From: an uncultured Oscillospiraceae bacterium
Lineage (GTDB): Bacteria > Bacillota > Clostridia > Oscillospirales > Oscillospiraceae
Assembly: GCA_947625945.1 (NCBI GenBank)
Contig: CANQQI010000008.1
Coordinates: 1-33,743 of the forward strand
Reading direction: 5' to 3'
DNA length: 33,743 nucleotides
The notes under the pieces were generated by a model, which was not told the DNA's origin, did not search any database, and saw only the letters and a program-made list of their open reading frames with translations. Numbering within the stretch: position 1 is the first letter of the stretch; the number at the start of each line of letters is the position of its first letter. Below are positions 349 through 21,738 of the stretch, in pieces. The translations under genes and the position numbers were made by a program.

Positions 349-3300
349 TCATCCCAGATCCTTGGGATCGATGGTAAAGTCCCCGGTGAGCTGGTCGCTG
401 ACCGCGGTGACATAGTGGAGCTTCAACGGGTCGCCCTCGGCGGTGGCCTCCACACCCTTGGAGTTGGTCAGCGTGAGTACGCCGCCTTCAAAGGTGTAAG
501 TACCGGCATCCTCTACGCTGTAGGACTCAAATTTGAATACATAGGTTCCGTCGGAATTGAAGGTCATAGTAGTGGCGCCGTCGTCACTGGTCACGGTGAC
601 GCCCTCGGTCGGAGCGGACGCCTCACCACCGGCGGGAAGATCCTTGGGATCGATGGTGAAGTCCCCGGTGAGCTGGTCGCTGACCGCGGTGACATAGTGG
701 AGCTTCAACGGATCGCCCTCGGCGGTGGCCTCCGCACCCTTGGAGTTGGTCAGCGTGAGCACGCCGCCTTCAAAGGTGTAAGTACCGGCATCCTCTACGC
801 TGTAGGACTCAAATTTGAATACATAGGTTCCGTCGGAATTGAAGGTCATAGTAGTGGCGCCGTCGTCACTGGTCACGGTGACGCCCTCGGTCGGAGCGGA
901 CGCCTCACCACCGGCGGGAAGATCCTTGGGATCGATGGTGAAGTCCCCGGTGAGCTGGTCGCTGACCGCGGTGACATAGTGGAGCTTCAACGGATCGCCC
1001 TCGGCGGTGGCCTCCGCGCCATTGGAATTGGTCAGCGTGAGCACGCCGCCTTCAAAGGTGTACGTGCCGGCGTCTTCTACGCCGTAGGACTCAAATTTGA
1101 ATACATAGGTCCCGTCGGAGTTAAAGGTCAGCGTAGTGGCGCCATCGTCACTGGTCACGGTGACACCGTCGGTCGGGGCTGTTTGGGCAGGCTGGGTCTC
1201 GTCCTGGGCAGGCTGGGTGGTGGTGTCAGTGGGCTCGTCGCTCTGGTCACCCTTGCCGCCGATGGGATTGGGAGCCGCCGCGCCGGTAGTGAGCATCATC
1301 CGGCTGGCCGCGGTATCGTCCAGGCTGACAGTACGGGCAGCGCCGAACTGCACCCAGAAATCCGCCTGCTCGGTCATGACTCCGCCAGGCAGCTCGACAG
1401 GCCAGGAAGCGATCGTGTCAGTATCGTAGGACATATTGTAACCGCCCACATCGGAATAGCCATTATAGACGATCCGGGTCGCCTCGCTGAGCTGGCAGGG
1501 CGTATAGCCGTCGGCGGAGGTGCCCTTGGTGTAGGTGCCGTAGGCGTTGACAACGGTATTGGACAGGAGCATACTGTAGCCGCAGCTGGCGGTAGAGGTC
1601 GTCAACTTATAGGTGCCGTCCTCATACAGCGTCAACTCATATTCCACAAAGTCGTTGTCACCCATGCTGTTTCCGGCAGCCTCGCCGTAGACATAGACGC
1701 CGATGACGTTGGCCCCACCGGCACTGGAGGAGCCGCCCTTCACCAGGAACATGACCAAGACACCGGCGGCCAGGCCGATCACCAGGGCGGCAACCGTCAG
1801 GATTGCTACGATTTTCTTTTTCACAATGCCATCTCCTTCTTCCTGTTTTGCAGTTTTCGGTTTCGATTTCAGAGTTATCACCAGGCGCAGCGTCGTCCAG
1901 ACCAAGAGGATCGCGGCGCCGCCAAATACAAGAATATTCAGAATGATCAGAGCGACCTGCCATGCGGGCATGGATGCGTGCCCAGCCTTTTCCATGGCGT
2001 TGGTGGTGGACACCGCGTAAATAATATTTTTCGCGGCCCGCTGGACATTGGCCATCACGGCGGCATTGCCGGTCCAGTCGGTGACGGTGCCGTCAATTTC
2101 CGCATAGGCATTGAGCTGCCAATAGTTTTTGTTGGTGTTGAGCCACAAGTCTGTGCCGGCGGCCAGACCGGAAACCATATCCTGATAGAACATGGCGGGA
2201 ACGGAGGCCTGGTCTGTGATGACGCAGCCCTCAAAGCCCCATTCCTCCCGCAGCACATTGGTCATCAGACCCTTGTGGGAGCCGGACCAGGTGGCGCCCA
2301 GCCGGTTCATGGCTGCCATCGCGCCGTTGGAGTCGCCCTCGGTAACGGTGTACTCAAAGCCCTTCAGGAAGATCTCTCGGATCGCCTGCTCATTGGCAAA
2401 GAAAGCGGCGCCGTAGCGGTTGCTCTCCTGGTCATTCAGGGCAAAGTGCTTCATATAGGTAAGCACGCCCTTGCTCCGGGTGCCGCGCACCTCGGCGGCG
2501 CTGATCTTACCAGAAAGGAAGCCGTCCTCGGAAAAATACTCGAAATTCCGCCCGCTGTAGGGAGAACGATGAATGTTCACACCGGGGGCATACCAGCCAG
2601 CCACGCCGGTGGCCACGGAGTCGTCGCCCACGCTCTCGCCCAGCCGCTGGATCAGCTCGGTATTCCAAGTGCTGGCCATCACTACTTCGACAGGATAGGC
2701 CGTGGCGCTTTGGCCACCCACCAGAGTCCCGGAAATACCAGAGGGGCCGTCCTTGTCCTGGGTGGCGGGAAGGCCGATGGCATCCATCTGAATGGTAGCA
2801 TAGCCGCCCAAACGGACAAGCCGCATTGCCTGGTCCGGAGTCAGGCGCTCCACCAGCTCCTGCCAGTCTTCATCACTGTAGTCGGTTCCGGCCAGGTCGG
2901 AGACTGTTTTGTCGCTGTCCTGCTCAAACGCGGGCATGGACTCCCCACCGGAACCGATCACCGACACGTCCCGCTTCCATAGCAGGTCCTTCAGCAGCGT
3001 TTCAGGCGCCTCCCAGGAGCCGTTTTGGTAAGTCGTGGGCCAAGTGCCGGTCCAATCGCTTCTGGATAGATAAGTAAAGTTTCCGTCATAGTAACGGATG
3101 TCCACATCGTCAAACTGGTTGACGATGGCCGTACCGGTGGCAAGGGAGACCGAATAAACGGCGTTGTCCTGACTGCTGACCGTGGTTTTCCAGGTCATGG
3201 CCGGATTGCCCTCGGCAGTCATCCCTTGGGAGACCGTATAGCCCTTGGCGGATAGAATATTATTCACCGCGTCATGCGCATCGTGCCCGGCAGTGAGATA

Positions 3301-4695
3301 GTAGTCGCCGGCATCCAGGATGTAGGTCCCCGCGCCCTTGGCGTCATAGGACTTCATCAGCTCCTTGGGCACGGTGATAGTAACGTCTTCGCTGTCGCCT
3401 GGCTCCAGCACCTCCGTTTTGGCAAAGCCTGCCAGGGTCACAGCGGCCTTCTCGATCCCGTTTTCCCGGTCATAGTCGGTATAGGGAGACTGGAGGTAAA
3501 TCTCTACCACATCCTTGCCCGCCTGGCTTCCGGTGTTGGTGACGGTGACGGACACCTCAAAAGCGTCCTCCTTTTCCTCCACCTGGAAATCGGACCAACT
3601 GAACGTGGTATAGGACAGGCCGTAACCGAAGGGGAATTGGACCGTGGCGGCGTAGTCATAGTCCCCGGCGTTGCCTTGGCCCATGACCGTGTCCTCATAC
3701 CTGGTCTCATAGTACCGGTAGCCCACATAGATGCCCTCGGCATAGACCAGATATTTGTTCCCATTTCCGACAGTGCTGTTGGTAATGGTGTAATCGCCCA
3801 GATTCGCCGCCGACGGGGCGCTGAGCGAGTCATAGGCATAGGTGTCCACCAGCTTGCCGGAGGGATTCACCGTACCGGCAAGCGCCTCGCCGATCGCGTA
3901 GATGCCCGTCTGGCCCACGCCACCGCACCAGAGGACGGCCTTGACGTTGGCATATGCAGGATCATCCAGGAAGCCCAGCTCCACTGGGTTGTTGCTGTTG
4001 AGCAGCAGGACCACATTGTCAAAGCTGCCGCAGGCCATGGAGAGCATCGCCAGCTCTTCCGGGTCCAGCTCCAAATACAGCGAGCCGGTCTCCAGCGGTG
4101 TGGTGGGGATGTCCGCGCTTTCGCCGCCGCTGCGGCCAATACAGACTACCGCCGCGTCGCCAAAGGAAGAGAAGCTGCTCTTGACGTCATCGGTGTACAC
4201 CGATACCGGCACTTCGTTCACGGCAAAGACGCCCGCACCAGTCTCGTCGGGGGTCGTCTTCCGGTAGCCCTTGCCCGGACCGGTGGCGTAAAAGTCCCAC
4301 AAGGTGGGATTTACGGAAAAGCCGGCGGCTTCCAGTGCCTGCTTCAGATTCGCGGCCTTGGAAGTATCCACCGCGCCGGAACCGGCACCGCCATAGACAA
4401 AGTCGACGCTGTCCTGGCCGAAGACAGACACCTTCGCCCCGGAGGCGAGGGGCAAACCGCCCTCATTTTTCAGCAGCACCATGCCCTCCTGCTCGATTTC
4501 CTGGCACAGTGCCTCCGATTCCTTGCTGGAAACCGTTCCGGAACCGCTCAAATAGACGGTAATGAGCTCCCGGTATGCATCGGCGAAATAATTGCCCACC
4601 AGCATGGCGGCAATCAGCACCAGGCATACAACGTAGATCACCACCGCTTTGGCGGTACGGATCGGTTTCAGCATCCCGTTTTTCTTCTTATCCAT
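349..4695 (-). CDS. Membrane-tethered permuted GH3 beta-glycosidase with C-terminal repeats
   Basis: A glycoside hydrolase family 3 enzyme that probably removes terminal sugars at the outer membrane face. Domain order is permuted, with the alpha/beta sandwich first (EGMVLLKN near residue 72, GGAGSGAV near 103), then an FnIII-like domain (FPFGYGLSYTTF near 355), then the TIM barrel. The expected nucleophile is the Asp of GCVITDQAS near residue 828. There is one hydrophobic segment near residues 17-40, a second near 915-935 and a third near 958-983, separated by a short Lys-rich loop. This predicts catalytic and C-terminal parts both outside the cell. The C-terminus carries three 94-residue repeats. 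The ATG at 4695 is preferred because AAAGGAG lies 9 bases away; the ATG at 4701 is only 3 bases from it. It is the last gene of the operon. Family call is firm, substrate unknown. Confidence 0.9.
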   Translation of the reverse strand: MDKKKNGMLKPIRTAKAVVIYVVCLVLIAAMLVGNYFADAYRELITVYLSGSGTVSSKESEALCQEIEQEGMVLLKNEGGLPLASGAKVSVFGQDSVDFVYGGAGSGAVDTSKAANLKQALEAAGFSVNPTLWDFYATGPGKGYRKTTPDETGAGVFAVNEVPVSVYTDDVKSSFSSFGDAAVVCIGRSGGESADIPTTPLETGSLYLELDPEELAMLSMACGSFDNVVLLLNSNNPVELGFLDDPAYANVKAVLWCGGVGQTGIYAIGEALAGTVNPSGKLVDTYAYDSLSAPSAANLGDYTITNSTVGNGNKYLVYAEGIYVGYRYYETRYEDTVMGQGNAGDYDYAATVQFPFGYGLSYTTFSWSDFQVEEKEDAFEVSVTVTNTGSQAGKDVVEIYLQSPYTDYDRENGIEKAAVTLAGFAKTEVLEPGDSEDVTITVPKELMKSYDAKGAGTYILDAGDYYLTAGHDAHDAVNNILSAKGYTVSQGMTAEGNPAMTWKTTVSSQDNAVYSVSLATGTAIVNQFDDVDIRYYDGNFTYLSRSDWTGTWPTTYQNGSWEAPETLLKDLLWKRDVSVIGSGGESMPAFEQDSDKTVSDLAGTDYSDEDWQELVERLTPDQAMRLVRLGGYATIQMDAIGLPATQDKDGPSGISGTLVGGQSATAYPVEVVMASTWNTELIQRLGESVGDDSVATGVAGWYAPGVNIHRSPYSGRNFEYFSEDGFLSGKISAAEVRGTRSKGVLTYMKHFALNDQESNRYGAAFFANEQAIREIFLKGFEYTVTEGDSNGAMAAMNRLGATWSGSHKGLMTNVLREEWGFEGCVITDQASVPAMFYQDMVSGLAAGTDLWLNTNKNYWQLNAYAEIDGTVTDWTGNAAVMANVQRAAKNIIYAVSTTNAMEKAGHASMPAWQVALIILNILVFGGAAILLVWTTLRLVITLKSKPKTAKQEEGDGIVKKKIVAILTVAALVIGLAAGVLVMFLVKGGSSSAGGANVIGVYVYGEAAGNSMGDNDFVEYELTLYEDGTYKLTTSTASCGYSMLLSNTVVNAYGTYTKGTSADGYTPCQLSEATRIVYNGYSDVGGYNMSYDTDTIASWPVELPGGVMTEQADFWVQFGAARTVSLDDTAASRMMLTTGAAAPNPIGGKGDQSDEPTDTTTQPAQDETQPAQTAPTDGVTVTSDDGATTLTFNSDGTYVFKFESYGVEDAGTYTFEGGVLTLTNSNGAEATAEGDPLKLHYVTAVSDQLTGDFTIDPKDLPAGGEASAPTEGVTVTSDDGATTMTFNSDGTYVFKFESYSVEDAGTYTFEGGVLTLTNSKGAEATAEGDPLKLHYVTAVSDQLTGDFTIDPKDLPAGGEASAPTEGVTVTSDDGATTMTFNSDGTYVFKFESYSVEDAGTYTFEGGVLTLTNSKGVEATAEGDPLKLHYVTAVSDQLTGDFTIDPKDLG
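357..1180 (-). repeat. Three in-frame tandem repeats of 282 bp in the GH3 gene
   Basis: The marker GATCCTTGGG recurs at 357, 639 and 921, a period of exactly 282 bases (94 codons). The two copies nearest the C-terminus (357-638 and 639-920) are almost identical at the DNA level, while the third (921 to about 1180) has more silent changes. Each unit encodes a beta-rich sequence with NSDGTYVFKFESY and EDAGTYTFEGG, followed by a DLPAGGEASAPTE linker. The pattern indicates recent duplication. Confidence 0.92.
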
Positions 4696-4749
4696 TTGCA
4701 TCTGCTCCTTTCTAGAATGGCCCGCGGCTGCGATCCATCAAAAATATAT

Positions 4750-4791: not shown

Positions 4792-6180
4792 TCATTCCCC
4801 GCTGGAAAACTCCTGGAGCCTCCAGCACGCCGACCAGCGGATCTCCGGCATATCAGCGTGGATAGTCACTGGCAGCCACACATAGCCTGCTACGGAGGTG
4901 TCGGCCGTTTCCAGCACATTCGCTTCCAGCATTTCCTGCCGTTCCGCCGGTGTGGCATGATACCGGTCCGGAGCGTCCTTTTCGGCAATGACCCGGGTAA
5001 ACAGATCCGCGATCCGGGCATCCACCGGATAGCCGGGAAGCCAGCGATCCGCCATGGCGATCAGCAGGCCGCTGCCCTCTACCCGGAATACCTTACAGAT
5101 CTGACTGTTGAAGGAGGCGTTGGTCTCGTCCTCCGGGTGTGGATTCCCGATGTGTTCAAAGGGTATATCCCAGGCATCCGAAACGGCGGCGGCGCTTTGG
5201 TTCGGCACATAGCCGGTCATGCCGCTGGTGAGCATATATTTTCTTCCGCCCCGCTCAAAGAGCGCCGGGGCCTCCCGGGTAAAGGGCGGGTGCAAATTCG
5301 GATAGCTTTTCGCAACCTCCCTGCCGGCATGGAGATAATCCTCCGTCAGCTCCATGCAGAGCATGGAACGGTGGTCCGCGTCGAAGTAGAGATACCCCTT
5401 CCCGGTTTTCTCATCGGAGACCAGGTCAAAATCCCCTGCCTTGTGGCCGCCGGGATTATAGAGGTTCTCCACCATCCGGTAGGGACCTAAAAGCCGGTCC
5501 GCCTGCCACACGGTGAAAGCCGCCTCCGGCCCGGAGAGCTTGATCCAGCAGACATACTTCCCGGTGGCGGGACACTTGAGAATGTGGGGCCGGTCCACCC
5601 GCTTTGCCGGGAACAGTGCGGCATTGGGATCGTCCAGCACTGGGGGGATGAGGAATCCCCGGTCCTCCCAATTATATAGATCTGTGGAAGCGTAGACCTT
5701 GATCCCCCAGGTCCAGACGCCGTTCTTTCCGTCGGTATGCTCCTTGTTTTCCCCATACCAATAGTAGACGCCGTCCTCGAAATATACCGCGCCGCCATGG
5801 GCTTGGATCGGTTCGCCCTTGGTATCCAGCCAGGGCTGACCGGGGTAAAACGCGTCTTGCGTATGGGACGCCGTTTTTGCCTTGGGTTTGCTCTGATCCT
5901 GACGGTCCAGTTCCTGAAAGCGCTGGATCAGTGCCCGCTCTGCCGGGCTGATCCGGTTTTCCGGGGTGTTGAGCTTCTCCAACTCCCTGCCCAGAGATTC
6001 CAGGAGCTGCTCTCCCTGCGGGACCCTGGCATATCGCACCAGCTGCTCCAAGGATAAGGAACCGGCCTGGGGGTTGGCCGCTACCATTTTCCTCATACCG
6101 GGAAGAAACCGGTCAAACAGCGCGGCTCCGGCGGGGTCTTCCAGAAGAGCGGAGAGCTTCATGTTGACACTATAAACCAT
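4792..6180 (-). CDS. GH43-like glycosidase with N-terminal helical module
   Basis: Five-bladed propeller glycoside hydrolase of the GH43 type, cytoplasmic because no signal peptide is seen. The recognisable block is PIQAHGGAVYFEDGVYYWYGENK near residues 125-147, with further propeller strands (GIKVYASTDLYNWEDRG, RPHILKCPATGKYVCW). The AHGG...YYWYGE pattern recalls GH43 subfamilies 24/34 (galactan-type exo enzymes), but I cannot fix the subfamily or substrate. Residues 1-100 are not part of the propeller. They form a helical segment (LLEDPAGAALFDRFLPGM) resembling the C-terminus of the neighbouring GH2. The gene starts 9 bases after the GH2 stop, with AGGAAGTGAG as ribosome site. An internal ATG six codons on has no ribosome site, so 6180 is preferred. 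Confidence 0.85.
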   Translation of the reverse strand: MVYSVNMKLSALLEDPAGAALFDRFLPGMRKMVAANPQAGSLSLEQLVRYARVPQGEQLLESLGRELEKLNTPENRISPAERALIQRFQELDRQDQSKPKAKTASHTQDAFYPGQPWLDTKGEPIQAHGGAVYFEDGVYYWYGENKEHTDGKNGVWTWGIKVYASTDLYNWEDRGFLIPPVLDDPNAALFPAKRVDRPHILKCPATGKYVCWIKLSGPEAAFTVWQADRLLGPYRMVENLYNPGGHKAGDFDLVSDEKTGKGYLYFDADHRSMLCMELTEDYLHAGREVAKSYPNLHPPFTREAPALFERGGRKYMLTSGMTGYVPNQSAAAVSDAWDIPFEHIGNPHPEDETNASFNSQICKVFRVEGSGLLIAMADRWLPGYPVDARIADLFTRVIAEKDAPDRYHATPAERQEMLEANVLETADTSVAGYVWLPVTIHADMPEIRWSACWRLQEFSSGE

Positions 6181-6189
6181 CGCTTTATC

Positions 6190-8361
6190 TCACTTCCTGA
6201 TCTGCTGCAAGGCGGCGTTGAGGGATCTTACCATCTCCGCCGGTACCGCGCCGCCGGCCTGCTTGATCAGGCTCTCCAGGGGCAGCCCCGCCATCATACG
6301 CTGAAGGTTGGCATTCCCGGAGGCGCTTTTGGCTACATCGCCCCGGCTGGCGGTCATGCGCTCCATCATCTTTCCCAAGATCGCGGCGGAGCGGGGATTC
6401 TGCATCAGCTCACCCATGGTATCCTTGACAGAATAGCAGTCGGGGTCATAGTCCGCTTTATCGAACCAGTTGACGACCTCCGCTTTCCGGAAAAGATACG
6501 CCCTGTTGGGCTCCGCCGTGCGGCGCAGGATGATCTGATCCCGGCACTCTCCGGCGACGGCCTCAATTTGATGCTCGCCGGTAATGGGGACGGTAAAGGT
6601 GAAAACGGTTTGCCCCGCAATGGAGCCGATCTCATTCCCGTCCACAAAGAGCGCCACGGAGGGCTGGTTGGAATAAACCTTGACCTGGGTAACCCCTTCC
6701 GCCCGGTCAGCGTATCGCCGCCCGCAGATATGTACGAACGGCTCTTGGCTCCATGCCGCCTTGTACAGGTAAAACGTGTCCTTTCGCAGCTTTCGGTCAA
6801 AGGTCACCAGGCCCTTCTGGTTGATGCCCTTTTTTCCACCCTCATCCCGGCCGTCGGCGGCGAAGTCGAACAGATTCCACACATAGGTAGCCCAAAGATA
6901 GGGCCGCTCCCGGATCACCTTCAGCAGGTGCTCATGGTAGAGGCACTGGTACTCCTCGCTGTAGTCTCCCCGCTCGGGCGTGGAGGAATGGAATTGGGGA
7001 TTAGCGTCGGCGCCGTACTCAGAGAAGCCGATGACCCGTCCGGGGAATTTAGCATGGAATTCATCGAAGAATCGGTCGTTCTGCTCCAATTCTCCCAGAT
7101 ACCAGCCAAAGTACAGATTGTAGCTTCCGATATCGGGAATATCAATAAGCGGGCTGTCGGTCTCCAGCATGAACACATGGGCCATGGTGGTGGGCCGGGT
7201 GGCATCCAGCCGATGGCAGAGATCGTTGAGCAGCCGGTGGTTCTCCATCAAGTCCTCTGTCGCCTCGCCGGATGCCGTGATCTCATTGGAAAGTCCCCAG
7301 CACACAATGGAGGGATGATTATAATTTTGCACGATCAGCTCCCGCATCTGACTGAGGGTGTTCTCCCGGCCGTTCGGCATATGCTCCGTGATATAAGGGA
7401 TCTCCGCCCAGACGATGATTCCGTATTCGTCGCACAGATCGTAAAACTCCTGGGCGTGCTGGTAATGGGCCAGCCGCACGGTATTGGCACCAATCTCCCG
7501 GATGATTTCCAGGTCTTCCCGGTGCTCGGCCATGGTGAGCGCGTTGCCCATACCCTGCCGATCCTGATGGCGGGACACCCCGCGGAGGGGGTAGGGCCGA
7601 CCGTTGAGGAAAAAGCCCTTCTCCCGGTCAAAGCGGATTTCCCGACAGCCGAACCGGGTACTGGTCTCATCGCCGCTTTCCAGCTTCGCGGTGGCAGTAT
7701 ACAGGTACGGGTCCTGCACCCCGTCCCAAAGCCGGACGTTCTCCAGCACAAACTCCGCGCTGGCGTAGCCGTCCACAGAGGGAACGGTCCTGTGCTTTCC
7801 ATCTACCGTGATCTCCACATCGCCGCCATTTTGCCAGGTCTCCACCATGACGGTGGCGGAGCGACGCGCCAGGTCTACGACGGACGTGGCCTTGATGCCC
7901 GGCGTGCCGTCCTTTTCCAGTTCAAAGTGCCGTTCCGGGACAACGATCAGCTTCACATCCCGGTACAACCCGCCATAGAAGGTAAAGTCCGCCTTCTGGG
8001 GGTATACCCGGCGATTTTCTCCATTGTCTACCGTCACTTCCAGCAGATTTTCCTGTCGCAACGCATCGGTCATCTCCGCCCGGAAGGTGGAGTAGCCGCC
8101 CTCATGATGGGCAAGAGGGACACCGTTGAGCGTCACATCCGCGGTCATAGCCGCGCCGCTGAATTCAATATAGACCCGCTCTCCATCCTTCAGCAGAGGC
8201 TTGGGGAAGGATTTGGTATACACCGCGGCGCCGCGCCAGTAGTCATTGCCCCCATCCTGACCATCCACGGCATTCCAGGTGTGGGGCAGAGTGACGGAAA
8301 CAGGCGCCTCCCCAGGCTTGGCAAAGGACCAGTTTCCGTTAAAATCAATGCTTTTTCGCAT
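6190..8361 (-). CDS. GH2 beta-glycosidase (beta-galactosidase/beta-glucuronidase type) with C-terminal helical module
   Basis: Glycoside hydrolase family 2 retaining enzyme, cytoplasmic. It shows the sugar-binding jelly-roll domain (NGNWSFAKPGEAPVSVTLPHTWN), an immunoglobulin-like domain, and a TIM barrel with the acid/base Glu in WGLSNEI near residue 358 and the nucleophile Glu in IGFSEYGAD near 447. The barrel ends with WNLFDFAADGR and NQKGLVTFDRK. An N-x-K motif is present at the position used by glucuronidases, but many beta-galactosidases also have one, so activity on galactose or glucuronic acid is open. After about residue 640 a helical tail (MGELMQNPRSAAILGKMM) matches the N-terminal module of the GH43 next door. 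AAGGAGGAG lies 3 bases before the ATG and the gap from the GH3 stop is 10 bases. Confidence 0.93.
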   Translation of the reverse strand: MRKSIDFNGNWSFAKPGEAPVSVTLPHTWNAVDGQDGGNDYWRGAAVYTKSFPKPLLKDGERVYIEFSGAAMTADVTLNGVPLAHHEGGYSTFRAEMTDALRQENLLEVTVDNGENRRVYPQKADFTFYGGLYRDVKLIVVPERHFELEKDGTPGIKATSVVDLARRSATVMVETWQNGGDVEITVDGKHRTVPSVDGYASAEFVLENVRLWDGVQDPYLYTATAKLESGDETSTRFGCREIRFDREKGFFLNGRPYPLRGVSRHQDRQGMGNALTMAEHREDLEIIREIGANTVRLAHYQHAQEFYDLCDEYGIIVWAEIPYITEHMPNGRENTLSQMRELIVQNYNHPSIVCWGLSNEITASGEATEDLMENHRLLNDLCHRLDATRPTTMAHVFMLETDSPLIDIPDIGSYNLYFGWYLGELEQNDRFFDEFHAKFPGRVIGFSEYGADANPQFHSSTPERGDYSEEYQCLYHEHLLKVIRERPYLWATYVWNLFDFAADGRDEGGKKGINQKGLVTFDRKLRKDTFYLYKAAWSQEPFVHICGRRYADRAEGVTQVKVYSNQPSVALFVDGNEIGSIAGQTVFTFTVPITGEHQIEAVAGECRDQIILRRTAEPNRAYLFRKAEVVNWFDKADYDPDCYSVKDTMGELMQNPRSAAILGKMMERMTASRGDVAKSASGNANLQRMMAGLPLESLIKQAGGAVPAEMVRSLNAALQQIRK

Positions 8362-8371
8362 AGGCTCCTCC

Positions 8372-10861
8372 TTACTTACTTGTCAGGACCGTATTCCCCC
8401 GCACCAAGCGCAGGACTCGGGCAGCGCTGCACCGCAGGTCCTCCATGCGGACTGCGCCGGAGTCGACGCCCTTTTTCAGCGCCTCCACCTGATCCGGCCG
8501 GCCGGGGCAGATGAGGTCGCATTGCGCGGCGGGCGCTTTCTGCGCGTCGCCGCTGAGCGCTTTGCAGCAGTCGGTCCGGTCTGCCTTCATGGCATCCCAG
8601 TCGCTCATAACCAGGCCACGGAAGCCCCATTCGTTTCGCAGCACTTTCACCAGCAGATCGTAATTATTGGGGCAGTATATACCATTGACCTTGTTATAGG
8701 CAGCCATCACCGTCATGGGTGCGCTTTCCTTCACTGCAATCTCAAAGCCCCGCAGATACAGTTCCCGCAACGTCCGCTCCGTCATATTGGAGGAGGAGAA
8801 ATTGCGCTGCAGCTCACAGCTGTTGGCGGCGAAGTGCTTCACGCTCATGCCCTTGCCGGGATGGGACTGAACGCCCCGGACGATGGCAGCGGCCATCTTG
8901 CCAGACACCAGCGGGTCCTCAGAGTAATACTCGAAGGTTCGCCCGCACAAGGGGTTGCGGTGGATGTTCATGCCGGGGGCCAGCCAGACCGTAACGCCAA
9001 AAGCTTCCATTTCCGCGCCAACGGCGTCTCCCACCGCTTCCAGAAGCGCGGGATCGAAGCTCTGGGCCAAAAGCTGGCTGCAGGGCCATGCGGTGGCGTA
9101 CTGATAGTGAACGGTTCCATCCTCCGGTCGGGCCATCTGGCTCTTCAGCGCCATGCCGGCAAAGCCAAACAGATACCGGCGGTATGCCTCCAGTGTCTCC
9201 GGCACCCGGGCAGCTTTTACGGAGCCATCCGGGAGCTCTACCACCTGGCTCGTCAGATTCAGCCCCGCGGGGCCGTCGGATAGAATGGCGTTGGGAATGC
9301 CCAGGGTTTCATACAGCTCCGGCGTGGTGGTGCCGGAGGCGCCCATGGCTGTAACCTGGAGTTGCTTGTTGCCGGTGCCGCCGCCCACCACCAGAGTGGC
9401 CAACTGCTCGACAGTCATGGCCTCCACCAGCGGGTCGGACGGTTCCTCTGGGGTTTCATAGGTGTGCCGGATCGGCTCGGGAAGGTATTCGTCCAGAGCC
9501 CATACCGGCAGGCCGGACACATCCTCGGCAGGCCGGGCAGGAGGAACGATTTCTTTTATCTCATGCAAAGGCGGGCAGACGGAAACGCATTGCTCCAGCA
9601 CCGCCTCCGCGCCAAGGGTCAGCGCGGCCACAGGCACAGCCGCATCGGAGGCGTTGCCCAAACGCAGAATGTATTTTCCGGACCAAAGGACCCAGACGGC
9701 CTTCTCCTCGTCATAGCAGGCCAGGTTCTTCATGGGTACGGTCAGTAGGACCTCCTTGCACGCACCGGGAGCCAAATCTTCCGTTTTGGAAAAGGCTACC
9801 AGTCGCTGACGCTCAGCCCCGGTCTGGCCAAAGGGAACGGAGGCGTAGAGCTGAACCACCTCCCGGCCAGGTACCTTCCCTACATTCTTAACCGACGCGT
9901 GGATCTTCAGCGCCCCTGTTTCAACAGATATATCACACAGAGCGATCTGAAACGCGGTATAGCTCAGACCGTATCCAAACGCATATCGAGGCTTCACTCC
10001 GAAGGTATCAAAGAAGCGGTAACCTACATAGATCCCCTCGTTATACTCCTGGTTATATTCATCGCCGCCCAGATAGGAATAAGTCTCGTTGGAGGGCAGG
10101 TCCTCGAACCTGTAGGCCCAGGAGGTGGCCAGTTTTCCGGAGAAATTCACCTTCCCGGACAGCACATCCGCCAGGGCGTTGCCTCCCTCCTCTCCCCCTT
10201 GGACAAAGTAGACCAAGGCGCTGACATGAAGGGTATCCAGGAAGCTCACGTCGATCACACCGCCGGCATTGATCACAACGATCAAATTCTTGTACGCGCC
10301 AGAAACAAATTCCAGATTTTCCCTTTCCACATCGTCCAGACGGTAGTCGCCCTGCACGTCTTTTCGGTCATTTCCTTCACCGGCCTGCCGGGCCAGGACA
10401 TAGACCACCGTATCGCAACCAGAGGCCGCCACGTCTTCCGCTGTCACCGGGATGCCGGTGGGATGCCGGAAGGGCGGGATCTCATGCAGAATCCGGTAAA
10501 ACTCCCGGACCCCCGCCACCTTTTTCTCCATTTCCTGCCGGTACGCCTCGTAGGTATCGGCATAAAACCGGTCGAATCGATCCAGCCAGCCCGTGGTCGT
10601 GATCTCAAATCCCGCGTTTTCCAGTCCCTGGGCAATGGTGACGGAGTATCGCTCCCGCACGGCGCCGGAACCGGTCCCGCCCTTGACGGTCATTCTGGCC
10701 CCTGAACCATATAGCGCGATTTTTTGATCCTTCAGCGGCAGGACACCGTCATTTTCCAGCAGCACAAAGCCCTCCGCCGCAGCTCTGCGGGCCAGCGCAC
10801 GGTTTCTCAGCTCCATCGGGGACGGCTCTCGGTTTGTACCGCCCATAATGATCGTTTTCAT
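8372..10861 (-). CDS. Cytoplasmic permuted GH3 beta-glycosidase
   Basis: Glycoside hydrolase family 3 enzyme of 829 residues, without signal peptide or membrane segment. Domain order is permuted as in the other GH3 here: alpha/beta sandwich (EGFVLLENDGVLPL, GGTGSGAV), FnIII-like domain (YAFGYGLSYTAFQ near 300, VKNVGKVPGREVVQLY), then the TIM barrel from about residue 480. The nucleophile Asp lies in GFRGLVMSDWDA near residue 753. The KHFAANS motif of the barrel is intact. The ORF track begins at a GTG at 10933, but the ATG at 10861 has GGAGGAG 5 bases upstream and matches where family homology begins, so I use it. It follows the symporter by 81 bases that contain a GACAGCTGTC palindrome. It probably trims beta-linked glucose or xylose from imported oligosaccharides. 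Confidence 0.94.
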   Translation of the reverse strand: MKTIIMGGTNREPSPMELRNRALARRAAAEGFVLLENDGVLPLKDQKIALYGSGARMTVKGGTGSGAVRERYSVTIAQGLENAGFEITTTGWLDRFDRFYADTYEAYRQEMEKKVAGVREFYRILHEIPPFRHPTGIPVTAEDVAASGCDTVVYVLARQAGEGNDRKDVQGDYRLDDVERENLEFVSGAYKNLIVVINAGGVIDVSFLDTLHVSALVYFVQGGEEGGNALADVLSGKVNFSGKLATSWAYRFEDLPSNETYSYLGGDEYNQEYNEGIYVGYRFFDTFGVKPRYAFGYGLSYTAFQIALCDISVETGALKIHASVKNVGKVPGREVVQLYASVPFGQTGAERQRLVAFSKTEDLAPGACKEVLLTVPMKNLACYDEEKAVWVLWSGKYILRLGNASDAAVPVAALTLGAEAVLEQCVSVCPPLHEIKEIVPPARPAEDVSGLPVWALDEYLPEPIRHTYETPEEPSDPLVEAMTVEQLATLVVGGGTGNKQLQVTAMGASGTTTPELYETLGIPNAILSDGPAGLNLTSQVVELPDGSVKAARVPETLEAYRRYLFGFAGMALKSQMARPEDGTVHYQYATAWPCSQLLAQSFDPALLEAVGDAVGAEMEAFGVTVWLAPGMNIHRNPLCGRTFEYYSEDPLVSGKMAAAIVRGVQSHPGKGMSVKHFAANSCELQRNFSSSNMTERTLRELYLRGFEIAVKESAPMTVMAAYNKVNGIYCPNNYDLLVKVLRNEWGFRGLVMSDWDAMKADRTDCCKALSGDAQKAPAAQCDLICPGRPDQVEALKKGVDSGAVRMEDLRCSAARVLRLVRGNTVLTSK

Positions 10862-10942
10862 GGCAGCTCCTCCATTTATAATCATGCCGTTGTGGGCGAC
10901 AGCTGTCTGCCGCCGCCCGCATTTTTGCCTCACAATGTGTGG

Positions 10943-12757
10943 TTATTTGCTGTTCTTTTTATTTTCCCGGATGGCCTTTTTTGCGGTCTTCATTGCCTTG
11001 TGGGCAGCTTTCAGCTCGGCCTTTGCCTTTTTTTCCGCCCGTTTGGCCAGTACCTTCTGGTTTTCGGCCTCAAAGTCCAGGCCCTTCTTTTCACATTTCT
11101 CTTTCAGCTCCCGGACGCGGATCTCCTCCGCCATGCGGTCGGCCTCCTCCCGCTCCCGGCGCTCCAGCTCGTCAGCGGGGATATACTCAATACCCAAGGC
11201 GGCGCATTCGGCCACCTTCCGGTCTTGAAGCTCTCGAGACACCTGGGGAAGATGCTTTTCAATGTCGAACAGGAAGAAGAAGATCACGAACACCAGGATG
11301 CCGATAAGGATGTAGCTGCCCTGATAGGCGAAGTTGATCCAGCCGGTGGCAGCCGCGGGCTGGTCTGCATACAGGGCAATATCGCCGTTCATGCCAATCT
11401 GCTGGGGCTGCATATAACCGCTGGCCATCAGGCCTAGGTTGAAGATGCCCTGGGCAATGCCGACGGCAAACATCATGGACGCGCTGGAGAAGCCGCCGGT
11501 AAGCCCGTCGCTGCGGACCTTGGTTTTCCACTCCACATGGTCAATGACATCGCCCATGTAGGAGGTAATGACGTAAGAAAACGAGATATTGCCAATGGCG
11601 GCCAGTGCCGTGCCGATCATAATCATCATACGGCTGCCGGCGTTCATGTAGGCAAATATGGAGCCGAAGACTGTAATGATTGCGCCGCCCCAGATCACCT
11701 TCCGGCGGCCCAGCTTTTTCATCAGCGGCAGGAGCAGCAGAATGCCCGGGCCCATGGGGGACAGCGCGATCATCTGGAAGCTGGCCTGGATCGCGCCAAC
11801 CTCACCGTAAGCGTTGCCCCGGACGACCCATCCGGAGTAGTAGATCAGGGAGATGTTCCGCATATTGGTCAGAATCTCCGTGACCAGCAGCAGGATGATA
11901 AACATCACCCAGTATTTGTCTACAATGCAGGCCTTCAGCTGCTGGAACATGGTTGCCTCGGTGTGAGGGGCAGAAGGCGCGGTAGCATTGGAATCCTCGA
12001 TCCCCACCTGATTGCGGCGCTCCTCCGTGACCCGCTCTCGGGTGTAGAAATACTGCACGAAGGCCAGAGGCACGCTCAGCAGGGCAAAGGCGGACATGGT
12101 CACAAAGTAACCCTGGGCGTTATTGCCGTGCATGGCCGAGCATACAGCGGACAGAATCATGGGGAACAGGATGGACACAAGACCCGTGCCCACATTCGCG
12201 GTGATGCGGGCCGCCATGGCGTTGTTCTTCCGCTGGTTCACATTTCGGGTGGACAAGGCGGCGGACAACTCCTTGGACATATTCCACATGGTGTAGGCCA
12301 CGCAGTAATAGAGGTTGTAGCTGACGATCACCCAAATGGCTTGGGCCATGGTTCCTTGGAATGGCATCCAGAACATCAGAATAATGCTGATGGCCACCAG
12401 CGGAGCGGAGATGATCATCCATGGCCGGACCTTGCCCTGGCGGCAGGTGGTCATGTCGATGAGCTTGCTCATGATGAGGTTCGTCACTGCGTCCAGCAGT
12501 TTGGACACCACGGGGAACAGGACCATAAACGTGGCGATCCAGGCCGCCCGGTCCACCGTAAATCCCAGGATGTCGGTGAGGTACTGGTTGAAGTAGCTGT
12601 TGACGATGGACTGGCCAATGAGCATTCCGTAGGGACCTAAAACGTAGCCCAACCACATCTCTTTGGCAGTGGTGTTGGCGGAAGTGATGCGCGAGTCCCA
12701 TTTGTGGCTGGCAAAGGCCCCGGACAGCAATCCGCGTTTTTCTTTTGCCGCGTTCAT
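10943..12757 (-). CDS. GPH-family sugar:cation symporter (MFS) with basic C-terminal tail
   Basis: Twelve-helix transporter of the glycoside-pentoside-hexuronide:cation symporter family, in the cytoplasmic membrane. Seen in the sequence are TTCRQGKVRPWMI (the GPH loop 2-3 signature), TMWNMSKEL, KYWVMFIILLLV and GGFSSASMMF in the second half. After the last helix comes a charged, probably coiled-coil cytosolic tail (about residues 510-604, LKEKCEKKGLDFEAENQKVL), longer than in typical MelB-like members. GGGAGGAA precedes the ATG. Being directly upstream of the soluble GH3, GH2 and GH43 genes, it probably imports their oligosaccharide or glycoside substrate. It is closely related to the symporter at 19972-21738. 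Confidence 0.92.
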   Translation of the reverse strand: MNAAKEKRGLLSGAFASHKWDSRITSANTTAKEMWLGYVLGPYGMLIGQSIVNSYFNQYLTDILGFTVDRAAWIATFMVLFPVVSKLLDAVTNLIMSKLIDMTTCRQGKVRPWMIISAPLVAISIILMFWMPFQGTMAQAIWVIVSYNLYYCVAYTMWNMSKELSAALSTRNVNQRKNNAMAARITANVGTGLVSILFPMILSAVCSAMHGNNAQGYFVTMSAFALLSVPLAFVQYFYTRERVTEERRNQVGIEDSNATAPSAPHTEATMFQQLKACIVDKYWVMFIILLLVTEILTNMRNISLIYYSGWVVRGNAYGEVGAIQASFQMIALSPMGPGILLLLPLMKKLGRRKVIWGGAIITVFGSIFAYMNAGSRMMIMIGTALAAIGNISFSYVITSYMGDVIDHVEWKTKVRSDGLTGGFSSASMMFAVGIAQGIFNLGLMASGYMQPQQIGMNGDIALYADQPAAATGWINFAYQGSYILIGILVFVIFFFLFDIEKHLPQVSRELQDRKVAECAALGIEYIPADELERREREEADRMAEEIRVRELKEKCEKKGLDFEAENQKVLAKRAEKKAKAELKAAHKAMKTAKKAIRENKKNSK

Positions 12758-14997: not shown

Positions 14998-16776
14998 TTA
15001 TTTTACTTTCTTTGCCTTTTTGGCGGCCTTCTTGGCTTCCTTAGCTGCCCGCTTGGCCAGCACTTTCTGGTTTTCAGCCTCAAAGTCCAGGCCCTTCTTG
15101 GCGCATTTTTCCTTCAGTTCTTTAATCCGGTTTTCCTCGGCCTCCTGCGCCTGCAGCGCCCGCTCCTGCTTTTCCAGCACGGACTGGGGGATGTACTCGA
15201 TGCCCTGGGCTTCGCATTCCTTGCGCTTCTTTTCCTCCAAGGACCGCTGTACAGTGGGCATATCCCGCTCGATCTTAAAGAAGAACGCGAAAAGGATGAA
15301 GAACAGCACACCGGTGAGCATATTGGCGCCCTGATAAGAGAAGTTGATCCAGTTGGTGGCTGCCTGGGTCTGATCCGCATACAGAAGGATCTGATCCCCG
15401 TCATTGTTGATGAAGGAGCCAACCACTTCCGGCTGGACGTACTTTGTAACGACCAGACCCAGATTGAACAGCGCCTGGCCTATGCCCTTGGAGAACATCT
15501 CCGCGAAGCCGACCACAGCCGCCGTCAGGCCCTCTACCCGCACGCCCCGGGAGTACTCCACATGGTCGATGGCATCGCCCACGAAAGTGAGCATGGAGTA
15601 GATCAGCGCCATAGCGCCGATGGAGTAAATGGCAGTGCCGCCATAGATCGCACCGGTCTGCCCTACGCTCAGAAATGCGGCAAACGCGCCTACCGCCGCA
15701 AAAACCGACCCGACAACGATGACCTTGGTGCGGCCGAACTTTTTGAACAGCGGCAGCAGCAGGAGCAATCCGGGGCCCATGGGCGCCATGGAGATCATGG
15801 TGAATTTTGCCTGAATGGATGCGTATTCGCCGTAGGCGTTGCCATTGACCACCCAGCCGCTGTAATAGACCTGGGCGACGCTTCGCATGGCGTTGAGTAC
15901 CTGATAGATCAGGATCATCAGGATCAGCATGATCCAGTATTTATCCCGAATGCACGCCTTGAACTGCTCGACAAAGGAGGCTTCCTTCACCAGTGTCTGG
16001 CCCTGGGGCTGGCCGGTCACACCGTACTGATTGCGGCGCTCCTCGGTGATCCGCTCCCGGGTGAAGAAGTACTGCACGAAGGTCAGCGGTACGGCGATGC
16101 AGCACATCACCGCCATGCAGACCAGATATCCATCCCGGGTGTTGCCTACCATGCCGCTGATGGCGGTAAGAATGGTGGGGAACAGGATAGAAATAATGCC
16201 GGTGCCGATATTTTTCGTGATCTGGCCGGCCATGGAGTTGTTTTTCCGCTGCTGGAAATTCCGGGTAGACAGCGCAGCGGTCAACTCATAAGACATATAC
16301 CACATGGTATAGCCCACGGAGTAGAACAGATTGTAGGCCACAATGATCCAAATCGCCATGACCACCGGGTTGGAAAACGGAATCCAGAACAGCATCATCA
16401 GGCTGACGACCATGATGGGCAAGCTCAGGATCAGCCAGGGGCGGAGCTTACCCTGGCGGCAGGTGGTGTTATCCAGGACCTTGGCCATCAAAACATTGGT
16501 GATGGCATCCAGGATCTTGGAGAACAGGGGGAACAGGACCATAAAAGTGCCGATCCAGAGCCCCATACTGGAGGTGAAGCCCAGAACGTCGGTCAGATAC
16601 TGGTTGAAGTAACTGTTGACGATGGATTGCAGCAGCATGGCTCCGAAGGGACCGGCCACATAGCCCAGCCACAGCTCTTTTTTGCCTACGTTGGCGGATG
16701 TAATGCGGGTGTTCCAGAAGCTGCCCCGAAAGGCATTTTCAAGAAGCCCATTTTTGGTTTTCGTCGGTTCTGACAT
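14998..16776 (-). CDS. GPH-family sugar:cation symporter (MFS) with basic C-terminal tail
   Basis: Twelve-helix GPH symporter of 592 residues with TTCRQGKLRPWLI in loop 2-3, TMWYMSYEL, and KYWIMLILMILI opening the second half. The cytosolic tail (about residues 500-592) repeats the LKEKCAKKGLDFEAENQKVLAKRA pattern seen in two other symporters here and ends in a Lys/Ala-rich run. AAGGAGAG lies 5 bases before the ATG. It is the most divergent of the three tailed paralogues. No enzyme gene follows it, so its cargo cannot be inferred from an operon. It has its own AT-rich upstream region, which contains a 16-bp palindrome. Confidence 0.92.
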   Translation of the reverse strand: MSEPTKTKNGLLENAFRGSFWNTRITSANVGKKELWLGYVAGPFGAMLLQSIVNSYFNQYLTDVLGFTSSMGLWIGTFMVLFPLFSKILDAITNVLMAKVLDNTTCRQGKLRPWLILSLPIMVVSLMMLFWIPFSNPVVMAIWIIVAYNLFYSVGYTMWYMSYELTAALSTRNFQQRKNNSMAGQITKNIGTGIISILFPTILTAISGMVGNTRDGYLVCMAVMCCIAVPLTFVQYFFTRERITEERRNQYGVTGQPQGQTLVKEASFVEQFKACIRDKYWIMLILMILIYQVLNAMRSVAQVYYSGWVVNGNAYGEYASIQAKFTMISMAPMGPGLLLLLPLFKKFGRTKVIVVGSVFAAVGAFAAFLSVGQTGAIYGGTAIYSIGAMALIYSMLTFVGDAIDHVEYSRGVRVEGLTAAVVGFAEMFSKGIGQALFNLGLVVTKYVQPEVVGSFINNDGDQILLYADQTQAATNWINFSYQGANMLTGVLFFILFAFFFKIERDMPTVQRSLEEKKRKECEAQGIEYIPQSVLEKQERALQAQEAEENRIKELKEKCAKKGLDFEAENQKVLAKRAAKEAKKAAKKAKKVK

Positions 16777-19971: not shown

Positions 19972-21738
19972 TTAATGGTTCTTCCTCTTGGCCTTCTGTG
20001 CTTCTTTCTTTGCGCGTTTGCTCAAAACCTTATTGTTCTCCGTCTCAAAGTCCAGGCCTTTCCGGGCACAACGCTCTTTTAACTCCCGGATACGGGTCTC
20101 CTCCGCCAGGCGCTCCTGCTCTGCAATTTCCAGACGTTCCTGTTCGTCAGCCGGAATGTACTCGATACCCAAGGCGGCGCACTCCGCGACCTTTCGTTCC
20201 TGAAGCTCTTTTGAAACTTTTGGAAGATACTTTTCCAAATCGAATATGAAGAAAAACACGACAAACATCATCACACCAATGATGATATAGCTCCCTTGAT
20301 ATGCAAAATTGATCCATGTCGTAGCGGCGGCCGTTTGATCTGCATACAGCGGGATGTTATCTGTGGAAATCCCGATCTGCTGAGGCTGTGTATAGCCTGA
20401 CAACATCAGTCCCAAATTGAATAGGCCCTGCGCGATTCCGACGCCGATCATCATGCCCGCACTGGTAAATCCACCTGTCAGGCCGTCACAACGGACACCT
20501 GTTTTCCATTCCACATGGTCAATGACGTCTCCCATATAAGAGGTGATCACATACGCGACACCGATGTTGCCGATGCCGCCCAATGCGGTGCCTATGTAAA
20601 TCATCATTCTGCTTCCTGCATTCATAAACGCGAACACGGAGCCCAGCGCAACAAGGATCGATCCGCCCCAAATACAGGTGCGCCGTCCAAATTTCTTCAT
20701 AAGCGGCAGCAGCAGCAAGATGCCGGGTCCCATAGGCGACAGTGCGATCATTTGAAAGCTCGCCTGAATGGTAGCAAACTGACCATAGGCATTGCCCTGC
20801 ACGACCCATCCGGAATAATAGACCAGGGAAATGTTTCTCATATTTGCCAAGATCTGCTGGACGATCATGACCAGAACAAAACTGATCCAGTACTTGTCCT
20901 GGACACATGCCTTGAGCTGTTCCAGCAGAGACGCTTCCCGTTGCGATTCGGTAAGCAGTGACTTTCCAGTTGAATCTTTGATACCGGTCATATTCCGGCG
21001 TTCTTCTGTCACCCGCTCACGGGTATAGAAATACTGAACAAAAGCCAACGGAATCGCCAGGAGCGCAATTGCCGACATACATACGAAGTAGCCCTTTGCG
21101 TTATCACCGTTTACAGCCGCCGTTGCAGCGGAAAGTACCATTGGGAACAGGATCGATGCCAAACCGGTCCCAACATTCAGCGTAATCCGGTCCGCCATGG
21201 CATTGTTCTTCCGCTGATTCACATTTCTTGTAGACAGTGCGGAGGACAGCTCCTTGGACATATTCCACATGGTGTAGGCGACACAGTAGTATAGGTTATA
21301 GGAAATAACGACCCATACCGCCTGCACAACCGGATTACTTACCGGAATCCAGAACATGAGAATAATACTGATCGCAACAATCGGCGCGGAAATAATCATC
21401 CATGGCCGGACCTTGCCCTGACGGCAGGTGGTATGGTCGATGACCCAGCACATGACCAAATTTGTTATGGCATCTAAAATTTTGGAAATTACCGGGAAAA
21501 GCACCATGAATGTGGCGATCCATGCTGCCCGATCAACTGTAAACCCGATAATGTCTGTAAGATACTGGTTAAAATAACTGTTTACAACAGATTGGCCCAG
21601 CAGCATTCCGTATGGTCCGATGACATAGCCCAACCACATTTCTTTTTTAGTCGTGTTGGCGGATGTGATCCGAGAGTTCCATTTCGGACTGCTGAAGGCA
21701 TTCGCAAGCAGTCCACGTCTTTCTTTTACAGCATTCAT
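19972..21738 (-). CDS. GPH-family symporter (MFS) closing the FdrA/AllG operon
   Basis: Twelve-helix GPH-type cation symporter of 588 residues, cytoplasmic membrane. It has TTCRQGKVRPWMI in loop 2-3 and is near-colinear with the 10943-12757 protein (both open MNA-KE-RGLL and share long identical runs), yet its DNA is visibly richer in A+T. It also carries the tail pattern LKERCARKGLDFETENNKVLSKRA. AAGGAGGAG precedes the ATG by 4 bases. It starts 22 bases after the DUF6282-type gene, so it belongs to the leftward FdrA/AllG operon and likely imports that pathway's substrate. The GPH family mostly carries glycosides, pentosides and hexuronides, which suggests a sugar- or sugar-acid-containing substrate. 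Confidence 0.92.
   Translation of the reverse strand: MNAVKERRGLLANAFSSPKWNSRITSANTTKKEMWLGYVIGPYGMLLGQSVVNSYFNQYLTDIIGFTVDRAAWIATFMVLFPVISKILDAITNLVMCWVIDHTTCRQGKVRPWMIISAPIVAISIILMFWIPVSNPVVQAVWVVISYNLYYCVAYTMWNMSKELSSALSTRNVNQRKNNAMADRITLNVGTGLASILFPMVLSAATAAVNGDNAKGYFVCMSAIALLAIPLAFVQYFYTRERVTEERRNMTGIKDSTGKSLLTESQREASLLEQLKACVQDKYWISFVLVMIVQQILANMRNISLVYYSGWVVQGNAYGQFATIQASFQMIALSPMGPGILLLLPLMKKFGRRTCIWGGSILVALGSVFAFMNAGSRMMIYIGTALGGIGNIGVAYVITSYMGDVIDHVEWKTGVRCDGLTGGFTSAGMMIGVGIAQGLFNLGLMLSGYTQPQQIGISTDNIPLYADQTAAATTWINFAYQGSYIIIGVMMFVVFFFIFDLEKYLPKVSKELQERKVAECAALGIEYIPADEQERLEIAEQERLAEETRIRELKERCARKGLDFETENNKVLSKRAKKEAQKAKRKNH

Follow-up and report, generated by a model that had tools for sequence, protein, structure and literature searches.

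The last 85 or so residues of a GH2 enzyme and the first 70 or so residues of the GH43 enzyme encoded next to it are homologous copies of one helical module, as confirmed by independent sequence profiles and by predicted fold. The two genes lie in a stretch of 33,743 nucleotides from an uncultured Oscillospiraceae bacterium, referred to here as the window. A preliminary description of the window had proposed that the two enzymes share this module and that it may bring the enzymes of the operon together, and the first of these proposals is borne out. As to function, we favor a flexible accessory module that flanks the active site and, we infer, acts in cis (probability about 0.45); docking between enzymes ranks second and ligand binding third. 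Sequence and structure models together are best explained by a promiscuous six-helix accessory domain, about 65-85 residues long, whose fold probably resembles that of DUF1858.

Both genes belong to an operon-like run on the minus strand that comprises a GPH symporter (10943-12757), a GH3 (8372-10933), the GH2 (6190-8361), the GH43 (4792-6180) and a membrane-anchored GH3 (349-4701). The GH2 catalytic part (residues 1-600, 6562..8361) matches Pfam PF02836 and PF00703, has 7kgz as its best PDB match and falls into the gut FMN-binding beta-glucuronidase group. Its C-terminal module, which includes a GH2-specific insertion, occupies residues 638-723 (6193..6450) and was placed by profiles, AlphaFold, Foldseek and homology to 7kgz. 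In the GH43 the module comes first (residues 1-70, 5971..6180), as placed by profile matches to standalone and GH2 modules, AlphaFold and Foldseek, and is followed by a linker (residues 71-108, 5857..5970) that is partly conserved in a full-length alignment (LNTPEN.ISPAE...F.ELD..D; 54-70% identity). The catalytic propeller (residues 109-462 and stop, 4792..5856) matches Pfam PF04616 and the solved structures 6eug, 6euf, 3vsf, 5flw and 7bys. No secretion signal is evident in the window's GH2 or GH43. The two share a reading frame, with the TGA stop codon of the GH2 and a 9-nt spacer (three codons) as the only separation from the GH43 ATG (6181..6192, minus strand); as judged from its sequence, this spacing is typical of translational coupling. 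Programmed readthrough of the GH2 stop codon into the GH43 was rejected as a conserved mechanism because two near-identical strains (L198 and L200) carry a second in-frame stop codon, TAA, in the same interval.

The similarity of the two modules lies below pairwise sensitivity, since a two-sequence BLASTP comparison of the GH2 and GH43 segments was not significant (E 0.058) and was in the wrong register. Profiles of the separate segments, however, matched each other. A profile of the GH43 module with three standalone small proteins (A1) and one of 11 C-terminal modules, mostly from GH2 (A2), aligned by hhalign with a probability of 96.5 and an E-value of 7.8e-10, in register over 69 columns. 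The strictest comparison, of four GH43 modules with 16 GH2 modules, gave a probability of 81 and an E-value of 1.2e-5, and larger profile sets reached 3.1e-16, a value that is not fully independent because profile A5 includes two GH2 rows. Reversed and column-shuffled controls gave E-values of 0.07-0.8. Standalone modules bridge the two groups, matching the GH43 modules at E 1.7e-12 and the GH2 modules at E 7.7e-12. In a scan of 297 genomes, A1, which contains no GH2 sequence, matched the C-terminus of the window's GH2 over the whole module (E 4e-7) as well as other GH2 ends. These alignments consist of hand-selected search matches, and most of the genomes are MAGs. The preliminary description had also stated that the segments align over their length with shared spacing; the common register held, but identical spacing did not, as the GH2 copy is about 12 residues longer in the middle of the module, where it carries a conserved 'ASRGDVAKS..' stretch.

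Structure prediction points the same way. The isolated modules were modeled with AlphaFold, and both models were confident (pLDDT 93.5 for the GH43 module and 86.4 for the GH2 module), with six helices in the same order. When queried separately against the PDB with Foldseek, both modules retrieved the C-terminal modules of the solved GH3 enzymes 7MS2 and 8J9F/9LQL; the Foldseek E-values are weak by themselves (0.1-0.2) and count only alongside the sequence evidence. Chance similarity between two alanine- and leucine-rich helical ends, with which the misregistered BLASTP result would agree, is refuted by the profile and Foldseek results with their controls, and we give it a negligible probability.

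The module is unnamed in public family libraries: Pfam and NCBIfam models stop before both segments, neither segment alone is credibly matched, and no model in either library covers the module. In fold and length, the predicted models of the window modules may resemble the small helical domain DUF1858 (PF08984 / TIGR03980; structures 2K53 and 2K5E). Foldseek aligned the GH43 module with 2K53 at a probability of 0.85 and a TM-score of about 0.52, with a weak E-value of 0.17, and for the GH2 module only 2K5E was retrieved, at a probability of 0.13. Membership of DUF1858 by sequence was rejected, leaving at most a similarity of fold: hhalign comparisons were not significant (E 0.14 and 0.23), the window modules had no match at the curated cut-off, and one of 34 module-family members matched at E 0.036 only. 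The CxxC redox motif of DUF1858 is also absent; the GH43 module has no cysteine, and the GH2 module has a single one.

A family profile matches several solved proteins (7KGZ, 7MS2, 6MVF-6MVH, 8GES/8GET and 8J9F), among them gut beta-glucuronidases (GUS) and GH3 enzymes. Residues 1-723 of the window's GH2 match residues 1-733 of Roseburia hominis Rh3 GUS (7KGZ; 1087 bits, the best PDB match), and the module profile matches 7kgz residues 652-731 (E 1.7e-15). These matches identify the GH2 copy with the C-terminal domain (CTD) of FMN-binding gut beta-glucuronidases (7KGZ; also 6MVF, 6MVG and 6MVH). The CTDs of these enzymes had stayed mobile and unresolved in crystals, and the Rh3 CTD is important for triclosan-glucuronide processing (PMC8748916). 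In AlphaFold models the CTD lies next to the active site, with a docked drug glucuronide at a distance of about 3 A (PMC9377255). The CTD influences the reactivation of drug glucuronides, and in 2022 its structure was still described as unresolved. Both papers describe it for GH2 only, and we found no link in either to GH43, GH3, GH78, GH13 or standalone proteins (PMC8748916, PMC9377255). On the profile evidence, the GUS CTD belongs to a larger family of modules, which has matches in solved GH3 structures and further members on the GH43 N-terminus, on several other enzymes and as standalone proteins. The GH3 beta-glucosidases 7MS2 (Clostridium thermocellum) and 8J9F/9LQL (PSTG1) differ from the window enzymes in their catalytic domain, but their C-terminal modules match both window modules in profile (E 2.8e-13 with profile A4, which includes GH3 rows; E 0.074 with A3, which has no GH2 or GH3 rows) and in fold (Foldseek probabilities 0.93 and 0.92). 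No published role for these C-terminal modules was found in the literature searched. The solved GH3 enzymes provide templates for a domain that has been studied as a GUS peculiarity, and the standalone modules of about 70 residues are small enough for NMR.

The module is widespread in Clostridia, occurring in 99 of 301 genomes of the bacterium's own family and in 21 of 291 of its class; a phylum-wide draw found it in 9 of 300. With partner names outside the window read from the sequences rather than from domain searches, the module is C-terminal on GH2, GH3 and GH78 and N-terminal on GH43 and GH13, and it further occurs on a short-chain dehydrogenase (SDR), on alpha/beta hydrolases (esterases) and on a STAS/kinase protein. 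Standalone copies are proteins of about 70-80 residues, some of them outside GH operons. The bacterium's own genome has three clear copies: the GH2, the GH43 and one standalone protein on contig C44. Neither of two close relatives, G036 and G101, yielded the standalone copy, though contig C44 may be misbinned. In one locus the gene for an SDR whose C-terminus carries the module is directly followed by a standalone module gene (L176 / G160:C67:1566-2163). A second group of standalone proteins, of the type NNQITVGELLDNP.. (L084-L090, L098, L100, L104-L122), recurs across many of the family's genomes, as a rule in a single copy, and had no Pfam match among the members scanned.

On the GH43 side, a detectable module is present in 52 of the 80 relatives kept, from Lachnospiraceae, Oscillospiraceae and related bins as well as Sphaerochaetaceae-labelled bins. 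All 52 copies fall within one clade of the GH43 tree (support 100/99), with three exceptions inside it, among them a sequence cut by a contig end (L227) and one whose module lies in a separate frame (L250). In relatives from Streptomyces and elsewhere, the match begins only near residue 107, and the N-terminal module is absent. As one clade holds all the carriers, the tree is most simply read as a single gain of the module at the GH43 N-terminus followed by its retention. The modules show purifying selection, with dN/dS of about 0.07-0.32 where dS could be estimated, although the dS values are near saturation.

The hhalign E-values given above place the GH43 module closer to standalone modules (1.7e-12) than to GH2 modules (1.2e-5), and on this basis it more likely came from a standalone-like ancestor than from a copy of the GH2 module. 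A different origin is suggested by the position of the two copies, which adjoin in the DNA and share a reading frame, with one stop codon between them: the GH43 module could be a functionless tandem duplicate of the adjoining GH2 module, split off by the stop codon. We consider this very improbable. The GH43 copy does not have the GH2 insertion, its closeness to standalone modules disfavors an origin by tandem duplication, and it has been kept under selection across a deep clade, even where no GH2 is near. The GH43 catalytic part matches the exo-beta-1,3-galactanase group (3VSF, 5FLW, 7BYS) among other solved relatives; unlike the window's GH43, relatives outside the module clade have no N-terminal module. 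These matches, together with the beta-glucuronidase-type GH2 and the presence of GH78 in related operons, make type II arabinogalactan side chains a plausible substrate.

The favored reading is that the module would be flexibly tethered and would pack beside the active-site mouth, either in its own enzyme or in a second subunit of the homo-oligomer, and there shape the access of an oligosaccharide or aglycone. The homology of the window's GH2 to 7KGZ over its full length, CTD included, supports this reading, as do the effect of the Rh3 CTD on triclosan-glucuronide (PMC8748916) and the position of the CTD in published models (PMC9377255). It also agrees with the distances among GH43 modules, which track those of their own catalytic domain (r 0.92), with the retention of the module in a single GH43 clade under purifying selection, with its closeness to standalone rather than GH2 modules, and with a genome that shows a single module protein (G017, 84% complete). 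However, a module found on GH2, GH3, GH43, GH78, GH13, SDR, esterase and kinase proteins and also alone is hard to square with one particular active site, and the published evidence concerns GH2 and not the GH43 copy.

The same distribution resembles that of carbohydrate-binding modules (CBMs), which likewise occur N- or C-terminally on unrelated catalytic domains. A CBM-like or other small-molecule-binding domain working in cis would account for the occurrence on several GH families and esterases at both termini, and the GUS CTD lies near the ligand in the published models (PMC9377255). On the other side, the module is also found on the STAS/kinase protein and as standalone proteins outside GH operons, and no Pfam CBM model matches it. 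Ligand binding as its main role is in our view improbable.

The proposal that the module is a docking or oligomerization element was supported only in part. It would have the modules of one operon's enzymes interact, with each other or with a standalone module, so that GH2, GH43, GH3 and GH78 form a cytoplasmic complex that dismantles one imported oligosaccharide. One line of support comes from natural single-chain GH2-module-module-GH43 proteins in two Lachnospiraceae bins, which also weigh against the favored active-site role in suggesting that both enzymes work together. One is a 1226-residue open frame (L238, 5664-9341), and the genes after it encode GH3 and GH78 enzymes that carry modules; the other is a 1363-residue open frame (L239, 5268-9356), followed by a GH78 gene with a module. 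Gene neighborhoods agree: in clostridial loci 10 kb or longer, a GH2 with the module lies within about 8 kb in 26 of 41 GH43 loci with the module versus 1 of 13 without it (Fisher p 9e-4), counts that are not independent because GH43 gained the module once, the p-value being uncorrected for this single origin. In 15 loci the GH2 gene lies directly next to the GH43 gene with a coupling-type junction, and each of the seven whole genomes checked that has a GH43 module also encodes a GH2-size module protein. A docking element would also fit the way in which the module turns up promiscuously, at the N- or C-terminus of unrelated folds and as standalone copies.

Several results stand against docking. 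In the window's operon the module is on only two enzymes; neither the GH3 at 8372..10933 nor the membrane-anchored GH3 at 349..4701 (both minus strand, from Pfam and a scan of the own genome) had a module match at E <= 1. In 15 of the 41 GH43 loci with the module there is no GH2 with the module within about 8 kb. There was no co-evolution between GH2 and GH43 modules beyond that of the catalytic domains (paired distances, partial r -0.18, permutation p 0.96). The G017 genome has its single module protein, two others (G045 and G057) have only a standalone one each, and the own-genome standalone copy has no counterpart found in close relatives. The published data speak of a domain that is mobile in crystals of FMN-binding GUS and that affects substrate processing in Rh3 (PMC8748916). 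We retain docking as a possible but unlikely second choice. Whether the module serves assembly or is an active-site accessory is now directly testable, with the natural GH2-GH43 fusion proteins among the material.

A more specific form of docking, which we regard as doubtful, would make the module the DUF1858-fold connector of an undescribed cytoplasmic glycosidase assembly (GH2, GH43, GH3 and GH78 enzymes that share one imported plant oligosaccharide as their substrate) in Lachnospiraceae and Oscillospiraceae. If true, this assembly would be an intracellular counterpart of the cellulosome. The idea is like that of cohesin-dockerin cellulosomes, in which a small module likewise recurs on unrelated glycoside hydrolases. 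The system itself differs, in that Pfam scans of the window proteins and of the modules matched no dockerin or cohesin domain, including the duplicated calcium-binding dockerin repeat, and the window's GH2 and GH43 have no evident secretion signal. We know of no scaffold protein for the module.

Two further features of the window concern the ends of neighboring proteins. At its C-terminus the membrane-anchored GH3 has a series of near-identical lipocalin-like repeats, each about 80-95 residues long, and the protein differs in length among near-identical strains (1450 residues in the window and in L057, 1356 in L178), as if the number of repeats varied between strains. Three GPH-type symporters (10943-12757, 14998-16776 and 19972-21738) carry lysine-rich, probably helical C-terminal extensions of about 80-100 residues past the transporter domain, with common motifs (e.g., EYIP and ELKE.C.KKGLDFE.EN.KVL).
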